Program-made: the position numbers and the translations under genes
Virus record (IMG/VR): IMGVR_UViG_3300043787_000148
Coordinates: 1-38,831 of that record
Source: a virus
Direction: 5' to 3' (one strand)
Length of the DNA: 38,831 bases
The notes under the pieces: model-generated
What the model saw: only the letters and a program-made list of their open reading frames with translations
What the model was told of the DNA's origin: nothing
Databases searched by the model: none
In this document: piece after piece, positions 309-31,300 of the stretch
How positions within the stretch are numbered: the first letter of the stretch is position 1
Layout: every line of letters begins with the position of its first letter

Positions 309-346
309 GCGGCGCAACGCAGGTGGATAGGACAGGTGGAAAGAGA

Positions 347-1579
347 ATGCTCAAGCCATACGACGTGATGAAACTCCCGGAAGGCAAACACTGTGACGGC
401 GACGGGCTCTGGCTCTACGTCAAGGGCGCAAGCCGGTCGTGGGTCGTGCGCAAGGACATCGCCGGCAAGCGCCGCGAGGTCGGCCTCGGCTCGGCCGCCA
501 ACGTCGCGCTGGCGATCGCCCGGAAGCGGCGCGACGAGCTCCTCGAGCAGTGGCGCAACGGCGTCGACCCGGTCGAGGAGAAGCGCAAGATCAAGGAGGC
601 GGCGGCGACGGCCGCCAAGCGCAAGACCTTCGCCGAGGCGGCCGAGGCCGTGATCGAGAAGAACCGCCCGGGCTGGAAGCTGTCGCTCGAAGGCCGCTCC
701 TCGACGCTCGATCAGTGGCGGCGCGATGTGGCGACCTGCGCGCCGATCGCGCGCAAGTTCGTCGACGAGATCACGACCGCCGACATCAAGACCGTGATCC
801 AGCCATACTGGGACCGGGAGCAGCTCGACAGCGCCCGGGCCTTGCAGAAGCGCATCGAGGCGATCATCGACTACGCCACCGCGCACGGCTGGCGCGCCGG
901 CGACAATCCGGCGTCATGGAACATCTTCAAGCACCTTTGGCCCGGTCAGAAACCGGCGGACGTCCATCATGCCGCGCTGCCCTGGCGCGAGGTCCCGGAG
1001 TTCCTCCAGCGGCTGCGGCAGTCCGAGGCGACCAGCGCCCGCCTCCTGGAGTTCGTCCTGCTGACCGCGGTCCGGTCCAACGAGGCGCGCGGCGCGACCT
1101 GGTCGGAGATCGATCTGGAGGCCCGTGTGTGGACCATCCCGGCGGCGCGGATGAAGATGGCCCGCGACCACACCGTGCCGCTCAGCGACCAGGCTGTGGC
1201 CCTCCTTGGCCGGATGGAGACGGAGAAGGTCGTCGAGAAGATCGACAGCGAGTTCGTCTTCGTCGGCGGCCGCGGGGCCGACGCCAAGGAAGCGGGCAGG
1301 CCGATGCGCAACGCCAGCCTGCATAGCCTGCTCAAGCGGGTGACCAGCGACGCGACCACCCACGGCTTCCGCAGCACGTTCCGCGACTGGTGCGGCGAGA
1401 CCGGCGTCGACCGCGAGCTGGCCGAGCGCTGCCTTGCGCACAAGGTCGGCAGCGACGCCGAGAACGCCTATGCCCGCTCCAGCCTGATCGAGCGGCGGCG
1501 CCCGATCATGCAGGCGTGGGGCGCGTTCGTCGACGGCGTCCGCGACAATGTCGTGCCTTTCGAGAGGAAGATCGCGTGA
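347..1579 (+). CDS. int: Phage tyrosine integrase, DUF4102 / P4-type
   Basis: Site-specific recombinase that integrates and excises the phage at an attachment site. The 410-residue length is normal for the family. The N-terminus (about 15-85) has the arm-binding DUF4102 pattern (DGDGLWLYV, then VGLGSAANVALAIAR). The catalytic domain shows R243 (LTAVRSNEARG), H339 and R342 (HGFRSTFRDW), H365 (CLAHK) and the nucleophile Y375 (AENAYARSS), so all key residues seen are intact. The ATG at 347 is chosen over an upstream in-frame start because GGTGGAAAGAGA lies just before it. The stop overlaps the next start (GTGA), so the two genes are translationally coupled. It shows that the element is temperate. 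Confidence 0.95.
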   Translation: MLKPYDVMKLPEGKHCDGDGLWLYVKGASRSWVVRKDIAGKRREVGLGSAANVALAIARKRRDELLEQWRNGVDPVEEKRKIKEAAATAAKRKTFAEAAEAVIEKNRPGWKLSLEGRSSTLDQWRRDVATCAPIARKFVDEITTADIKTVIQPYWDREQLDSARALQKRIEAIIDYATAHGWRAGDNPASWNIFKHLWPGQKPADVHHAALPWREVPEFLQRLRQSEATSARLLEFVLLTAVRSNEARGATWSEIDLEARVWTIPAARMKMARDHTVPLSDQAVALLGRMETEKVVEKIDSEFVFVGGRGADAKEAGRPMRNASLHSLLKRVTSDATTHGFRSTFRDWCGETGVDRELAERCLAHKVGSDAENAYARSSLIERRRPIMQAWGAFVDGVRDNVVPFERKIA

Positions 1580-19566: not shown

Positions 19567-19846
19567 GTCGCTGCCTCGGGCTGTTATGCACTGCCATCTT
19601 GTAATTGTTGATGATCACGCCGAGCTCGTCGGTGATGCCCCGGAGGGCCTTCGACATCGCCATGAGCTCGTCCCGGTGAGCCTGGTCGAGGGTGGTCATC
19701 ATCTCCTCGTACCAGCGGATCCGGAGCTCGCTGACCGCCTGTTGGAACGCCTTGTTGTTCAGGAGCTCCGAGGCCTCGTCGGCGAGCGCCCTTTTCTTCT
19801 GCAGGTCGTCGTTCGGCGGCGGCCGATTGCCGGGGTCGTCGATCAT
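19559..19846 (-). CDS. Small helical protein between portal and scaffold (95 aa)
   Basis: A 95-residue, mostly alpha-helical, charged protein (LADEASELLNNKAFQQAV, then LRIRWYEEMMTTLDQAHRDE). ATG overlaps the portal stop (ATGA). Its position and size are common in this group of phages. It could be a portal-bound accessory or a scaffold cofactor. Function unknown. Confidence 0.65.
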   Translation of the reverse strand: MIDDPGNRPPPNDDLQKKRALADEASELLNNKAFQQAVSELRIRWYEEMMTTLDQAHRDELMAMSKALRGITDELGVIINNYKMAVHNSPRQRHG

Positions 19847-22155
19847 GACCCGCCGCCGTTATTCGACTGCTGCGCGGCCTGCTGCTGGGCCGTCTCGGCC
19901 TGCAACTGCGCCGCCTGGCGCTGCTGATCGATCTTGGCCAGGTCGACCGCGGCCCCGAGGTGAGCAGTGTGGAGGTCGACGCCGGCGTCGAGGTGGGCCT
20001 GGTGGACGTCGGCCATGACCTTCGCCGCTTCGACCGGATCGACTGCGGTCGGGCCCTCGGGGCCGGCGCCGACGAAGATCTTGGCCCGCTCGATGTCGAG
20101 CTTCTGCTGGTCGTAGTCGGCTTTCTGCTTGAGCGCCGCAATTCGGTAGGCGTTGTCCTGGTCCTGCTTGTCCTTGCGCAGCTGCTGCTCGCCGATCGCC
20201 TGGGCGCCCTCGCTCTTGACCTTCTCGAACTGGGCCTTGGCGGCGACCGTTTGCGCGTCGGGCTCCTGCGGGGTCGCGGCGATCGCCGCCAGCACCTGCG
20301 GGCTTGGGGTCTTGAAGTAGCGCCCGGGGTTCTTGATGTTGGCGATGTCGAGCATGTCGCTGATGGTGTTCAAAAACTCCTGGATGCCGCAGACCGGATT
20401 GGTCGGGCCGAACTTGGCCATGATCATCATCTGATCGTTCTTGATCTGCTGCAGGGTCATCATCCGGATCGCGTCGGAGCCCTTGCCGAGCGTCGGGTTG
20501 ACCTCGACCCCCATGGTGGCGTCGAAGGTGCCGGTGTCGAGATCGGTCCATTGTCCGTTGATCCGCAGCGTCCGGCGCTGGTTCGGGGCCTCGGTGATTT
20601 CGTTGTAGAGGCCGTGGAATAAGTCCCTGAAGCCGGTTTCGGCGAGCACCCGGGCGACGAGCTCGGTCCGCTCCTGCTGGCCGTTGATGATCGCCTGGAC
20701 GCCGATCTCGGTGGACGACTGCAGCTGCTTGGGGTCGAGGCCCTTGGCGGCGTCGGATAAGCCGGTGCGGCGCTGGAAGATGGCGTTGAGCATGTCCAGG
20801 ACCGGCATCGCCTGCTGGCCGACGAACGGGGTCGTGGAGAAGCTGACGGCGGCCCTGGGATCGCCGCGGGTGCGGATGACGGCGCCGAGATCGTCGTTGA
20901 GCGCGTCGTCGATGTTGGTGGTGAGCTCGTTGACGACGGTCTTGGGGTTGATGCTCTCGGCCAGGCTGTCGAGCACCCCGCGCATCATGTTGGTTTTGAT
21001 GCGCTGGATGTCGATGGTGTAGTCGGCCATGCTGTCGCCGACGATGGTGTGGGAGATTGGGTCGCAGCCGAAGACGGCGAACTTGACCCGATTGGCGGTG
21101 GTGTCGTGGACGATCTCGTTGTCCTCGCCCATCGTGCAGATGTAGCGGAGCTCGGGCACGCCATCGCCGTCGGCGTCGACCTTGATGTACCACTCGCCGT
21201 AGAGGACGCCGTCGCCGACCCGGGTCGAGTTGTAGCGGCCCGGGTTTCTGAGCTGGGCCTCCATGGTGAAGTTCTGGATGTCCTGGCTCTGCAGGAAGTT
21301 GGCGCACTGCTCGCGCGGGTAGCCCATGGCGACGAGCTCGTCGATCGCCACCACCCGCTGGTGCCCGACGATGCGTGAGGTGCCGAAAGTTCTGGCGTAG
21401 CGGTCGAGCCGCATCTCCTCCGGCGGCACCCCCATGACTTTGATCAGGGGCTTGTCGACCAGGTATTCGAAGGTCACCTCCTGATAGGTGCCCATCTGCG
21501 GGTCGAGCTCGCCCAGGTGGACGATCTGGGCGGTGGCGTCCTGCTGCTGCAGGAGCTGGATCTGTTGCTGGTTGACGTTGATGAAGGTCTTGCGCTTCTT
21601 CTCGCGGTGGTCGTCGGTCCACCATTTGACGAAGCCGGTCTTGACGGTGAGCGCGTCCTTGAACGCCCCGTAGAGGATCAAAAAGCCCGGGTTATCCTGC
21701 CAAAAGACGTAGTTTATATAATTGGTCTGTTCTTGGGCGATCGCGACGTCGGCTTGGGTGCGCGGGGCGAGGTAGACGACGCTTTCGTGCGACGCGAACA
21801 GCCGGACCAGGCTCGGCAGCATCAGCATCACGGCGTCGCGCACGTCGGTCGAGACGTAGCTCGACTTGGTGGCGCTGTCCTGGTCGTAGCCGAGGATCTG
21901 CTCCCAGGTCTGGGTCGGATCCTGGATGATCATGGTGTCGGTGTAGGGGGAGCCGTCCGGGTTTAAGGACGGCAGATATCCGTAATAATATTTCTGCGCC
22001 TGGTCGCGGGCCGGGGCGAGGACCGAGCCCTCGTAGTCGCGGCTGTCGCGGATCAGGGCCTGGATGAACTGCTCATAGGTGGCCGGATCGCCTGGATCGT
22101 AGGCGTCGGGGCTTCCACCCTCTTTGAATGTAGCGAAAATGCGTTCTAGCGCCAC
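19843..22155 (-). CDS. Portal protein, P22-type
   Basis: A 770-residue protein, the right size for a large podovirus portal. It begins with a helical arm (ATYEQFIQALIRDSRDYEGS, then ARDQAQKYYYGYLP), has beta-rich wing and stem parts, and ends with a long Gln/Ala coiled tail like the barrel of P22 portals (AAQLQAETAQQQAAQQ). It forms the DNA channel at one capsid vertex and docks the terminase. GTG start, with GAGG seven bases upstream. It is the first gene of the 20-kb late operon. Confidence 0.85.
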   Translation of the reverse strand: MALERIFATFKEGGSPDAYDPGDPATYEQFIQALIRDSRDYEGSVLAPARDQAQKYYYGYLPSLNPDGSPYTDTMIIQDPTQTWEQILGYDQDSATKSSYVSTDVRDAVMLMLPSLVRLFASHESVVYLAPRTQADVAIAQEQTNYINYVFWQDNPGFLILYGAFKDALTVKTGFVKWWTDDHREKKRKTFINVNQQQIQLLQQQDATAQIVHLGELDPQMGTYQEVTFEYLVDKPLIKVMGVPPEEMRLDRYARTFGTSRIVGHQRVVAIDELVAMGYPREQCANFLQSQDIQNFTMEAQLRNPGRYNSTRVGDGVLYGEWYIKVDADGDGVPELRYICTMGEDNEIVHDTTANRVKFAVFGCDPISHTIVGDSMADYTIDIQRIKTNMMRGVLDSLAESINPKTVVNELTTNIDDALNDDLGAVIRTRGDPRAAVSFSTTPFVGQQAMPVLDMLNAIFQRRTGLSDAAKGLDPKQLQSSTEIGVQAIINGQQERTELVARVLAETGFRDLFHGLYNEITEAPNQRRTLRINGQWTDLDTGTFDATMGVEVNPTLGKGSDAIRMMTLQQIKNDQMMIMAKFGPTNPVCGIQEFLNTISDMLDIANIKNPGRYFKTPSPQVLAAIAATPQEPDAQTVAAKAQFEKVKSEGAQAIGEQQLRKDKQDQDNAYRIAALKQKADYDQQKLDIERAKIFVGAGPEGPTAVDPVEAAKVMADVHQAHLDAGVDLHTAHLGAAVDLAKIDQQRQAAQLQAETAQQQAAQQSNNGGGS

Positions 22156-23703: not shown

Positions 23704-25020
23704 ATGCTCGCTGCCGAAGAGGCCCCGGCCGTCGACGACGGCAAGATCCAGATCCCCTACCGGCCGCGCCCGCATTTCCGCGCCCTGCACGCCACCACCA
23801 AGCGCTGGATCTTCTGCTGCTCGCACCGCCGCGCCGGCAAGACGGTGGCGATCTCCAACCACCTGATCCGCGCCGGAAGCTTAAACCCGCGCAAATGGCC
23901 GCCGCCGCGCTACGGCTATGTCGGCCCGAGCTTTGAGCAGGCCAAAGACTTGGTGTGGGCGTACCTCAAGCAATACACGGAGAATATCCCCGGCACCCGC
24001 TACCTCGAGGGCGAGCTCTGCTGCATCCTGCCGACCGGGGCGATCATCAAATTGTACGGGGGAGCCGCCGCCTACGAGCGCATGCGCGGCATGTATTTCG
24101 ACGGCATCGCGCTCGACGAATACCCGTTGCTCAACCCGGCGGTGTTCTCAACCGTGGTCAGGCCGTGCCTGGCCGACTATGGCGGGTTCGCCATCGTCTC
24201 CGGCACCTCGAACGGCGACGATCACTTCAACCAGCTCAGGATCAAGACCGAGAACGACCCGCGCTGGGACCAGTTCATCATCCCGTTGTCGTCGACCGGC
24301 GAGGACGCGCTCTCCCAGGCGGAAGCGAAAGAGCTCACCCAGGACATGAGCCCGGACGAATACGCGCGCGAGATGGAGTGCGCCTTCGACGCTCCGGTCG
24401 AGGGCTCGTACTACGGCGAGATCCTCAACACGCTCGCCCAACAGGGCCGGATCTGCTCGGTGCCGGTCGATCTGGCCGCGCCGGTGATCACCGCCTGGGA
24501 CCTCGGCATCCACGACTATTGCTGCATCTGGCTCTACCAGATCGCCGGCAAGGAGATCCATTTCATCGACTACATCCAGGGCAGCGGCAAGGGCCTCGAC
24601 TTCTACGCCCAGGAGCTCCGGTTAAGGGCGAAGAAGGGCGGCTTCGTCTACAAGTGCCACTGCCTGCCGCACGACATCGAGACCCGCGAGATCTCGACCG
24701 GGGCGGCGCGCCGGCTTTACCTCGAGGAGCATCTCGACGAGCCGATCATCGTCGCGCCGTTCTCCGCGGTCGAGGACGGCATCGCCGCCGCGCGCGGGCT
24801 TCTGGGCTTAAGCTGGTTCGACCTGGTGCACACCAAGCAGGGCGTCAGCATGCTGCGCGGCTACCGGCGCAACAAGATGGGCAATCCGGTGCACGGGCCT
24901 GAGCCCTACTCGCACGGGGCGGACGCCTACAGGACCTTCGCCTGCACCTTCCACATGGTCGGCGGCTTGAGCGCGCGCGGCTCCGGCCGGCTGCGGCGCA
25001 AGATCCGCGGGATCATGTAG
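23704..25020 (+). CDS. terL: Terminase large subunit
   Basis: ATPase-nuclease that packages DNA into the head. In this 438-residue protein the Walker A motif is at about 40-47 (SHRRAGKT), Walker B with catalytic Glu at about 132-139 (FDGIALDE), the coupling motif is near SGTSNGDDHF, and the nuclease acidic residues are in TAWDLGIHDY (D266), LPHDI and HGADAYRTF. Length is normal. ATG with GGGA upstream, itself in a hairpin. It is on the strand opposite to portal and overlaps the converging 94-residue gene by eight bases. Confidence 0.93.
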   Translation: MLAAEEAPAVDDGKIQIPYRPRPHFRALHATTKRWIFCCSHRRAGKTVAISNHLIRAGSLNPRKWPPPRYGYVGPSFEQAKDLVWAYLKQYTENIPGTRYLEGELCCILPTGAIIKLYGGAAAYERMRGMYFDGIALDEYPLLNPAVFSTVVRPCLADYGGFAIVSGTSNGDDHFNQLRIKTENDPRWDQFIIPLSSTGEDALSQAEAKELTQDMSPDEYAREMECAFDAPVEGSYYGEILNTLAQQGRICSVPVDLAAPVITAWDLGIHDYCCIWLYQIAGKEIHFIDYIQGSGKGLDFYAQELRLRAKKGGFVYKCHCLPHDIETREISTGAARRLYLEEHLDEPIIVAPFSAVEDGIAAARGLLGLSWFDLVHTKQGVSMLRGYRRNKMGNPVHGPEPYSHGADAYRTFACTFHMVGGLSARGSGRLRRKIRGIM

Positions 25021-27075: not shown

Positions 27076-27636
27076 TTAGACCGCGTAGCGGGCCGGCCGG
27101 CGCTTCCAGCCCAGGGCGCCCAAGAGGGAGAAGCCGGCGAGCGCCATCGCCCAGGTCGGGGCCTCCGGCACCGTCGCCGTCGCCGTCCCGTCAATGGCGA
27201 TGTGGATCGGCGATGCTCCGCTGAAGCCCGAGATCTCGGCGAAGTAATCGCCGGCGGCGAGCCCCTTCGGCAGGACGGTGGCTTCCTGGCCGCCGACGAC
27301 GTCGGCGATCGGCGAGCTCTCGATCAGCGCGCCCGCCGGGATGAACGGCGGGGTCGAGCCGGTCGACGTCCAGTCGTTGAGGCTGAGCGAGCCGAGAGTG
27401 ACCCGCTCAGAGCCGGTGGCGCTGTCGCTCATCGACAACGTCACGGTCTCATCGACCGGGATGTTGAACTCGAAGAACTGGGCGAAAGCCGCGCCTGAGC
27501 CCGGCGTCTGCTCGGCCGGCAGCGGCAGGCTTTCGTTAAGGATGCTACCGATATCCTCGACCGTCACCACGACCGCGTGGGCGGGGCCGGCGGCGATCGC
27601 GGCGATCGCGGTCGCCAGCAGCAGTTTTTTCAACAT
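27076..27636 (-). CDS. PEP-CTERM surface protein carried by the phage
   Basis: A 186-residue exported protein. Residues 1-21 are a signal peptide (KKLLLATAIAAIAAGPAHA). The mature part is acidic and beta-rich (FAQFFEFNIPVDETVTLSMS), like many small PEP-CTERM proteins. The C-terminus is a complete sorting signal: VPEAP (156-160), a hydrophobic helix to about 177 and KRR at 178-180. In hosts with exosortase, such tails are cut and the protein is placed on the surface or in exopolysaccharide. AAAGGGTGA precedes the ATG. It looks like a moron gene changing the lysogen's surface. Confidence 0.8.
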   Translation of the reverse strand: MLKKLLLATAIAAIAAGPAHAVVVTVEDIGSILNESLPLPAEQTPGSGAAFAQFFEFNIPVDETVTLSMSDSATGSERVTLGSLSLNDWTSTGSTPPFIPAGALIESSPIADVVGGQEATVLPKGLAAGDYFAEISGFSGASPIHIAIDGTATATVPEAPTWAMALAGFSLLGALGWKRRPARYAV

Positions 27637-29137: not shown

Positions 29138-29377
29138 TCATTTGCGCCGCCTTTTGGCCCGCCGTTCGGCCTTCATCTCGCGGATGAGCCGGTCGACGTC
29201 GCTCTTCTTCACCATGACCGTGATGTAGGCCGGCATCGGCCCCTGGAAGTCATTCATCCGCCAGAACCGCTCGAGCAACTCGCCCTCGATCCGGCCAGTC
29301 CGGCACATTTCCGCAAATTCAGCGTCGGTGACGGAGCGCCCCCACGGGGTGTTCGGCGAGATGGCGAACTCCGTCAT
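29138..29377 (-). CDS. Small basic phage protein (79 aa)
   Basis: A 79-residue protein with a very basic tail (EMKAERRAKRRRK) that could bind nucleic acid, after a helix-rich body (DAEFAEMCRTGRIEGELLER). ATG overlaps the previous stop (ATGA). Function unknown. Confidence 0.55.
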   Translation of the reverse strand: MTEFAISPNTPWGRSVTDAEFAEMCRTGRIEGELLERFWRMNDFQGPMPAYITVMVKKSDVDRLIREMKAERRAKRRRK

Positions 29378-29556
29378 CGCACCCGCCTATGCTCCCGCCG
29401 GACAGTGGCCAACGCCTTCTTCGACGCCTCGATGAACGCCTCAAGCAGCTTCCGCACCTCTTCGGTCTCGCAATCAGGCAGCACCTTCGGGACGGTCTCC
29501 AGCACCCGCTCGAGATCCTCCTCGATCAGCTCCAGCCACTCGGCCTCACCGCTCAT
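29374..29556 (-). CDS. Acidic helical small protein (60 aa)
   Basis: A 60-residue helical protein, acidic in front (EAEWLELIEEDLERVLETV) and basic at the end (VRREHRRVR). ATG overlaps the stop of the Acb2/Tad1-like gene by four bases, so the two are co-translated. No known family. Could be a partner of its neighbour. Confidence 0.5.
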   Translation of the reverse strand: MSGEAEWLELIEEDLERVLETVPKVLPDCETEEVRKLLEAFIEASKKALATVRREHRRVR

Positions 29557-29777
29557 GGCTCGTCCCGCCAGGTCTGGGCCTTGACCGCCCACATCTGCGC
29601 ACCCTGGGCCTCGGTGATGGCGATCGACCACAGCCGCGCCTTCTCGCCAGTCGTCCTCGCCCGCTCCTCAGCGCAAAAGTCGATGATCTCGGCAAAAAGC
29701 TCCTTCAGCTGCTTGACCCCAGGATCGCCGCTCGGGTTGAACCCCAGCCCCACCGCCTTCTCGCCATAAGTCGCCAT
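29553..29777 (-). CDS. Acb2/Tad1-like signal-molecule sponge (anti-CBASS / anti-Thoeris candidate)
   Basis: A 74-residue helical-hairpin protein. It reads VGLGFNPSGD, then VKQLKELFAEIIDF, then a second helix ending AQMWAVKAQTW. The FNPSG opening and MWAVKAxT ending are what I associate with the Acb2/Tad1 hairpin family, which binds cyclic nucleotides or cyclic-ADP-ribose signals and so blocks CBASS or Thoeris defence. ATG at 29777 is chosen for GAGGG just upstream; an ATG at 29795 is possible. Only homology search or structure can settle the specificity. Confidence 0.7.
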   Translation of the reverse strand: MATYGEKAVGLGFNPSGDPGVKQLKELFAEIIDFCAEERARTTGEKARLWSIAITEAQGAQMWAVKAQTWRDEP

Positions 29778-29784
29778 TTTTCCC

Positions 29785-29988
29785 TCACCGCTCATGGTCG
29801 AAGTCCCCATTCCGAGCCCGCGCCGCCAGGTCCTTGTGCCCGGCCGCCTCAAGATCCCTCACCAGCCTGATGTCCGGGAAGACGTGCGGCGAACTCAAGT
29901 CGCCGTATTCCCCGTCCTTGGCCTTGGCCGCCATCTCCTTCAGCCCCCGCTCCTCCAAAACCCGGATCAACTCCTGCTTGGCGTTCAT
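29785..29988 (-). CDS. Small protein made of two tandem repeats (67 aa)
   Basis: A 67-residue protein in which ELIRVLEERGLKEMAAKAKD is repeated about 38 residues later as RLVRDLEAAGHKDLAARARN, each followed by a G-D/E-Y/F-D type end. Two helical repeats probably pack as a small bundle. ATG overlaps the upstream stop by four bases. It is a neighbour of the Acb2/Tad1-like gene. Function unknown. Confidence 0.6.
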   Translation of the reverse strand: MNAKQELIRVLEERGLKEMAAKAKDGEYGDLSSPHVFPDIRLVRDLEAAGHKDLAARARNGDFDHER

Positions 29989-31272: not shown

Positions 31273-31300
31273 ATTATACGCCTTGCCTCTGAGCCGTCAA
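31273..31300 (-). promoter_or_regulatory. Near-consensus sigma70 promoter, leaderless
   Basis: On the minus strand TTGACG (31300-31295), a 16-base spacer and a perfect TATAAT (31278-31273). Only six bases separate the -10 box from the ATG at 31266, so transcription should begin at or next to the start codon. This is the best promoter seen in the window. Confidence 0.8.

Follow-up and report, generated by a model that had tools for sequence, protein, structure and literature searches.

A putative Acb2-type cyclic-nucleotide sponge encoded in a row of small genes of a GC-rich environmental phage

A 74-aa protein of an environmental phage is supported as a member of the Acb2-type family, and its gene very probably encodes an oligomeric cyclic-nucleotide sponge that keeps CBASS effectors silent, where the oligomer, the ligand and the protection are argued by analogy with characterized family members. 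The window analyzed here is the whole 38,831-nt stretch of IMG/VR record IMGVR_UViG_3300043787_000148 (38.8 kb, 60-69% GC). The record encodes an integrase (323-1579, plus strand), a portal (19843-22155, minus strand), a large terminase (23704-25020, plus strand), a major head protein and an endolysin. Two other genes were recognized along the way. The product of 27076-27636 (minus strand) has a signal peptide and a C-terminal PEP-CTERM motif (PF07589, 23.7 bits against a cut-off of 20.7), which points to export and to handling by an exosortase of the host, and it has homologues in 14 related phage contigs; 31392-32135 (plus strand) encodes a Gene product 88 family protein (PF17338, 7e-34; phrog_1617).

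The acb2-type gene (P0002) occupies 29553-29777 on the minus strand, with its ATG at 29777 and a TGA at 29555-29553; the sequence-only reading had given exactly this interval and had left the strand unstated. The translated product is MATYGEKAVGLGFNPSGDPGVKQLKELFAEIIDFCAEERARTTGEKARLWSIAITEAQGAQMWAVKAQTWRDEP. The same reading described an FNPSG opening and an MWAVKAxT end. The FNPSG motif is indeed present, but it constitutes residues 13-17 (codons at 29727-29741, minus strand); a MATYGEKAVGLG leader precedes it, and it is not the very start of the protein. The other motif was found as MWAVKAQT, residues 62-69, at the end of the second long helix (codons at 29571-29594, minus strand). A GAGGG, the likely ribosome-binding site, is just ahead of the start (29782-29786, minus strand). 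The upstream neighbour (29785-29988, minus strand, 67 aa) ends 7 bases ahead of the acb2 ATG, and the downstream neighbour (29374-29556, minus strand, 60 aa) overlaps acb2 as ATGA; both are without a family. The junctions with both flanking genes are thus operon-like, and the GAGGG, the short upstream gap and the ATGA overlap together indicate that acb2 is translated as part of a row of small genes running leftward. Ahead of this row a consensus scan, the sole basis for the feature, finds a sigma-70-like site, TTGACG-16-TATAAT (11/12; 31273-31300, minus strand). It had been proposed that some of the small genes around acb2 may also be anti-defence genes; because searches of Pfam, PHROGs, NCBIfam and PADLOC returned nothing significant for them, that label is unsupported.

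Assignment to the family comes from several searches. Against Pfam PF24729 (Acb2/Tad1 hairpin) the window protein scores 30.6 bits, above the gathering score of 27, and T4 Vs.4, the established Acb2 of T4 and the positive control, scores 71.4 bits. The protein also matches phrog_717 (6.5e-06), to which T4 Vs.4 itself is assigned at 2.3e-32 (114 bits); Jenson et al. 2023 used PHROG 717 to define the homologues of T4 Vs.4 (Acb2) (PMC10097602). A profile of the relatives retrieves T4 Vs.4 from the PDB at E 0.0012, and when the comparison is made between profiles, the C-terminal 29 residues match T4-like Acb2s at a local E of 1.8e-05. Moreover, PF24729 is matched at E <= 0.001 by all of the 57 relatives in a diverse alignment (A2), which is the basis of the residue counts below and the input for AlphaFold2. 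The single window sequence gave no match to the PDB with phmmer, a search of NCBIfam gave none, and the sole PADLOC match, HamA at E 0.019, is at chance level. One PDB entry that scored above Vs.4 in the profile search, 7mcd, was rejected as a designed repeat protein with four weak repeats.

Relatives of the gene are numerous. The first viral scan of IMG/VR yielded 13 close relatives at 60-76% identity, and a profile scan with the alignment of these 13 yielded 412, of which 80 were kept. Related genes were found on hundreds of environmental phage contigs, at 45 loci in bacterial genome contigs and, by tblastn, in 158 phage records at ~38-57% identity; at the DNA level, a search of 50,697 phage records with the first 25 kb of the window found nothing closely related. 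When the gene is compared with its relatives, changes at third codon positions are ~2-4 times those at first or second positions, and dN is 0.15-0.27 against a dS of 0.78-1.36 where dS is calculable. Purifying selection therefore acts on the protein. Together with the relatives in IMG/VR and in the phage records, the codon-position pattern also means that the open reading frame is not a chance one. Among the relatives the loop between the two long helices (~residues 41-46) varies in length by more than 10 residues, and both protein ends are nearly fixed. Two genomes carry more than one copy: the same homologue is found at five loci in Avibacterium paragallinarum NCTC11296 (L112-L116) and at seven in one Rhodobacteraceae MAG (L137-L143), which suggests multiplied prophages. 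On contig L057, a second, diverged hairpin-like open reading frame (2025-2228; 67 aa, with FMWASRAAT; 17.6 bits, below the cut-off) shares an ATGA overlap with the acb2 homologue; the two may form a tandem sponge pair.

The position of the gene raises an alternative, namely that the FNPSG branch keeps the hairpin and serves packaging or virion assembly. Indeed, in 16 of 19 non-redundant contigs no more than 6 kb separates acb2 from the large terminase, where 6.5 would be expected from random placement on the same contigs, and it is likewise near the terminase in named phages. The junction between lysis and packaging genes is, however, a usual site of cargo genes. The presence of the gene is also patchy: among 40 contigs from phages whose terminases are related, only 5 match PF24729 above the cut-off (2 more matches are weak), and several such contigs longer than 40 kb have no hairpin gene. 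In L183, with a terminase ~80% identical, the neighbour order is kept and an unrelated 81-aa gene sits in the acb2 slot. L229 has a homologue of the upstream neighbour, with nearly the same DNA at the 3' end, and no acb2 after it. Finally, most ligand residues stay conserved, as described below, and we consider a packaging role very improbable. The gene is also framed by a 15-bp perfect direct repeat, CCATGAGCGGTGAGG, with a downstream copy at 29544-29558 and an upstream copy at 29783-29797 (both minus strand). These are the only two copies in the window, two copies occurred in 0 of 100 shuffles, and 45 relatives have, at the corresponding places, no repeat better than one of 11 bp. The pair may point to the way in which the cassette was acquired or might be lost; if the DNA between the copies were excised exactly, neither neighbour would be damaged. 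Since acb2 is often absent from near relatives that keep its neighbours, and since the repeat frames it, the gene is dispensable, replaceable cargo and not packaging machinery. Its patchy presence in near relatives fits an anti-defence gene.

Structure prediction had been named as a check, with loss of the helical hairpin or of the ligand pocket as the outcome that would count against a sponge. Neither loss is found: the hairpin is present in the model, and most of the pocket residues have counterparts. The AlphaFold2 model of the monomer, built with the 57 relatives, has a mean pLDDT of 95.9 and consists of one short helix (residues 4-9) and two long ones (19-41 and 44-69), with no further domain. 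This is the helix order of Acb2, in which one short N-terminal helix precedes two long antiparallel helices (PMC12043709). The top two matches in a BFVD search are annotated as Acb2/Tad1 hairpin (E 2.7e-4 and 6.9e-4). Comparison with the PDB is less specific. Foldseek returned nothing at E < 1, its best matches being unrelated helical bundles (best E 1.2). A second structure comparison placed T4 Vs.4 at rank 2 (Z 7.1, 3.2 Å over 61 residues, 20% identity) and gave PaP2 Acb2 a Z of 5.4, but a Z of ~7 is common among helical hairpins and many unrelated hairpins score similarly, so these values were used as support only. For the modelled protein, then, the PDB comparison is consistent with the Acb2 fold and not decisive.

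The same model bears on the second half of the earlier label, which was Acb2/Tad1-like. A Tad1-type sponge would sequester gcADPR and block Thoeris, and PF24729 covers the hairpin of Acb2 and Tad1 alike, so the Pfam match would suit either. In Tad1, however, an antiparallel beta sheet lies at the N-terminus, and its loops help to shape the ligand pocket (PMC12043709). The window protein is 74 aa and all helix, and the frame upstream of its start adds at most 25 residues. The Acb2 part of the label is upheld by Pfam and PHROG 717, by the fold prediction and by the ligand residues that could be mapped, and the missing beta domain speaks against the Tad1 part; a Tad1-type protein is very unlikely here. 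For the same reason, an anti-CBASS role is likelier than an anti-Thoeris one.

In T4 Acb2, base stacking is the role of Y8 and F82, the hydrogen bonds or salt bridges come from Y8, H11, K23 and R79, and the hexamer interface is made up of L29, A66, A73 and A77 (PMC10097602); T68M is reported to lower binding (PMC12657230). Plain MAFFT misaligned the N-terminus of the T4 protein, and the global hhalign register with Pfam/PHROG coordinates was taken instead. In this register, which has a low overall probability and at the N-terminus also leans on Pfam coordinates, FNPSG lies opposite T4 YKPHT, and the ligand positions pair as Y8-F13, H11-S16, K23-K25, T68-T55, R79-K66 and F82-T69 (T4 residue first); R79-K66 is found in both the local and the global hhalign alignment. 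Further pairs are P10-P15, L29-I31, A66-A53, A73-A60 and A77-A64. F13 and K25, both outside the patterns of the two main scans, are each conserved in 57 of 57 relatives; T55 (54/57), K66 (56/57) and the interface alanines A53 (55/57), A60 (55/57) and A64 (48/57) are also well kept, with conservation toward the C-terminus inflated by scans that used motifs from that end. Overall, conservation among the 57 relatives is higher at the published functional positions than in randomly drawn columns (P ~0.001).

Two ligand positions differ from T4: F82 is replaced by T69, invariant in the FNPSG branch, and H11 by S16. At these positions PaP2 Acb2 has Ala (for F82) and Leu (for H11), so neither residue appears to define Acb2, and the two changes are not decisive. 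The next residue, W70, is aromatic in most of the FNPSG branch and might stand in for F82. Loss of the F82 and H11 equivalents could also mean that the hairpin has degenerated or been repurposed and has ceased to bind cyclic nucleotides, an explanation of very low probability given the purifying selection and the invariance of F13 and K25 in the 57 relatives.

In other phages, Acb2 proteins capture the cyclic nucleotides by which bacterial immunity signals infection. A sponge of the Acb2 type would act as follows, if the window protein behaves as its family does. It would assemble as an oligomer, T4 Acb2 being a hexamer, and its protomers would hold cyclic di- and/or trinucleotides between them; F13 would stack on a base, and K25, K66 and T55 would sit at the ligand. 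CBASS effectors would stay silent, or be delayed in their activation, during phage replication. As a sponge, the protein could likewise set off Panoptes where the host has that system (PMC12657218).

Phage relatives of the window protein already carry the Acb2/Tad1 hairpin annotation, and Acb2 is by now routinely called in new phage genomes (PMC13348362). The gene is in this sense one more member of an annotated family, a further anti-CBASS candidate from a GC-rich, integrase-bearing environmental phage. What it adds is an Acb2 branch with a changed pocket that is widespread in environmental phages. Provisionally, we found no test of any FNPSG-branch protein in the openly accessible literature. 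That this branch (TxGExxVxxxFNPSG...MWAVKAxT, with an invariant Thr at F82) forms a separate sponge subfamily, for a signal that no characterized Acb2 prefers, is a speculative idea and rather doubtful; should its ligand differ, it would hint at immune signals not yet catalogued.

Among known systems, T4 Acb2 (Vs.4, PDB 7UQ2) has its Pfam family, PHROG 717 and helix order in common with the window protein, at ~20% identity. T4 residues Y8, K23, T68 and R79 have counterparts in F13, K25, T55 and K66, as A66, A73 and A77 do in A53, A60 and A64. In contrast, Y8 is changed to Phe, R79 to Lys, F82 to Thr (with W70 next to it) and H11 to Ser; the loop after FNPSG is three residues shorter, the helices are shorter, and there is a TYGEKAVGL leader. 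Tad1 shares the C-terminal helical hairpin (PF24729), its N-terminal beta domain being absent from the window protein. PaP2 Acb2 (p26, PDB 8H2J/8H2X) resembles the window protein in its hairpin fold (Z 5.4), in having an aromatic residue and a Lys in the same register, and in doing without F82 and H11; unlike the window protein, it is without the MW motif, and the two have no detectable pairwise sequence match. Two related phage proteins whose identity as Acb2/Tad1 hairpins comes from annotation alone, A0A411AWH0 of Providencia phage vB_PstP_PS3 and A0A6J5LWM4 of an uncultured phage, have the same predicted fold as the window protein (TM 0.80-0.88, by query length).
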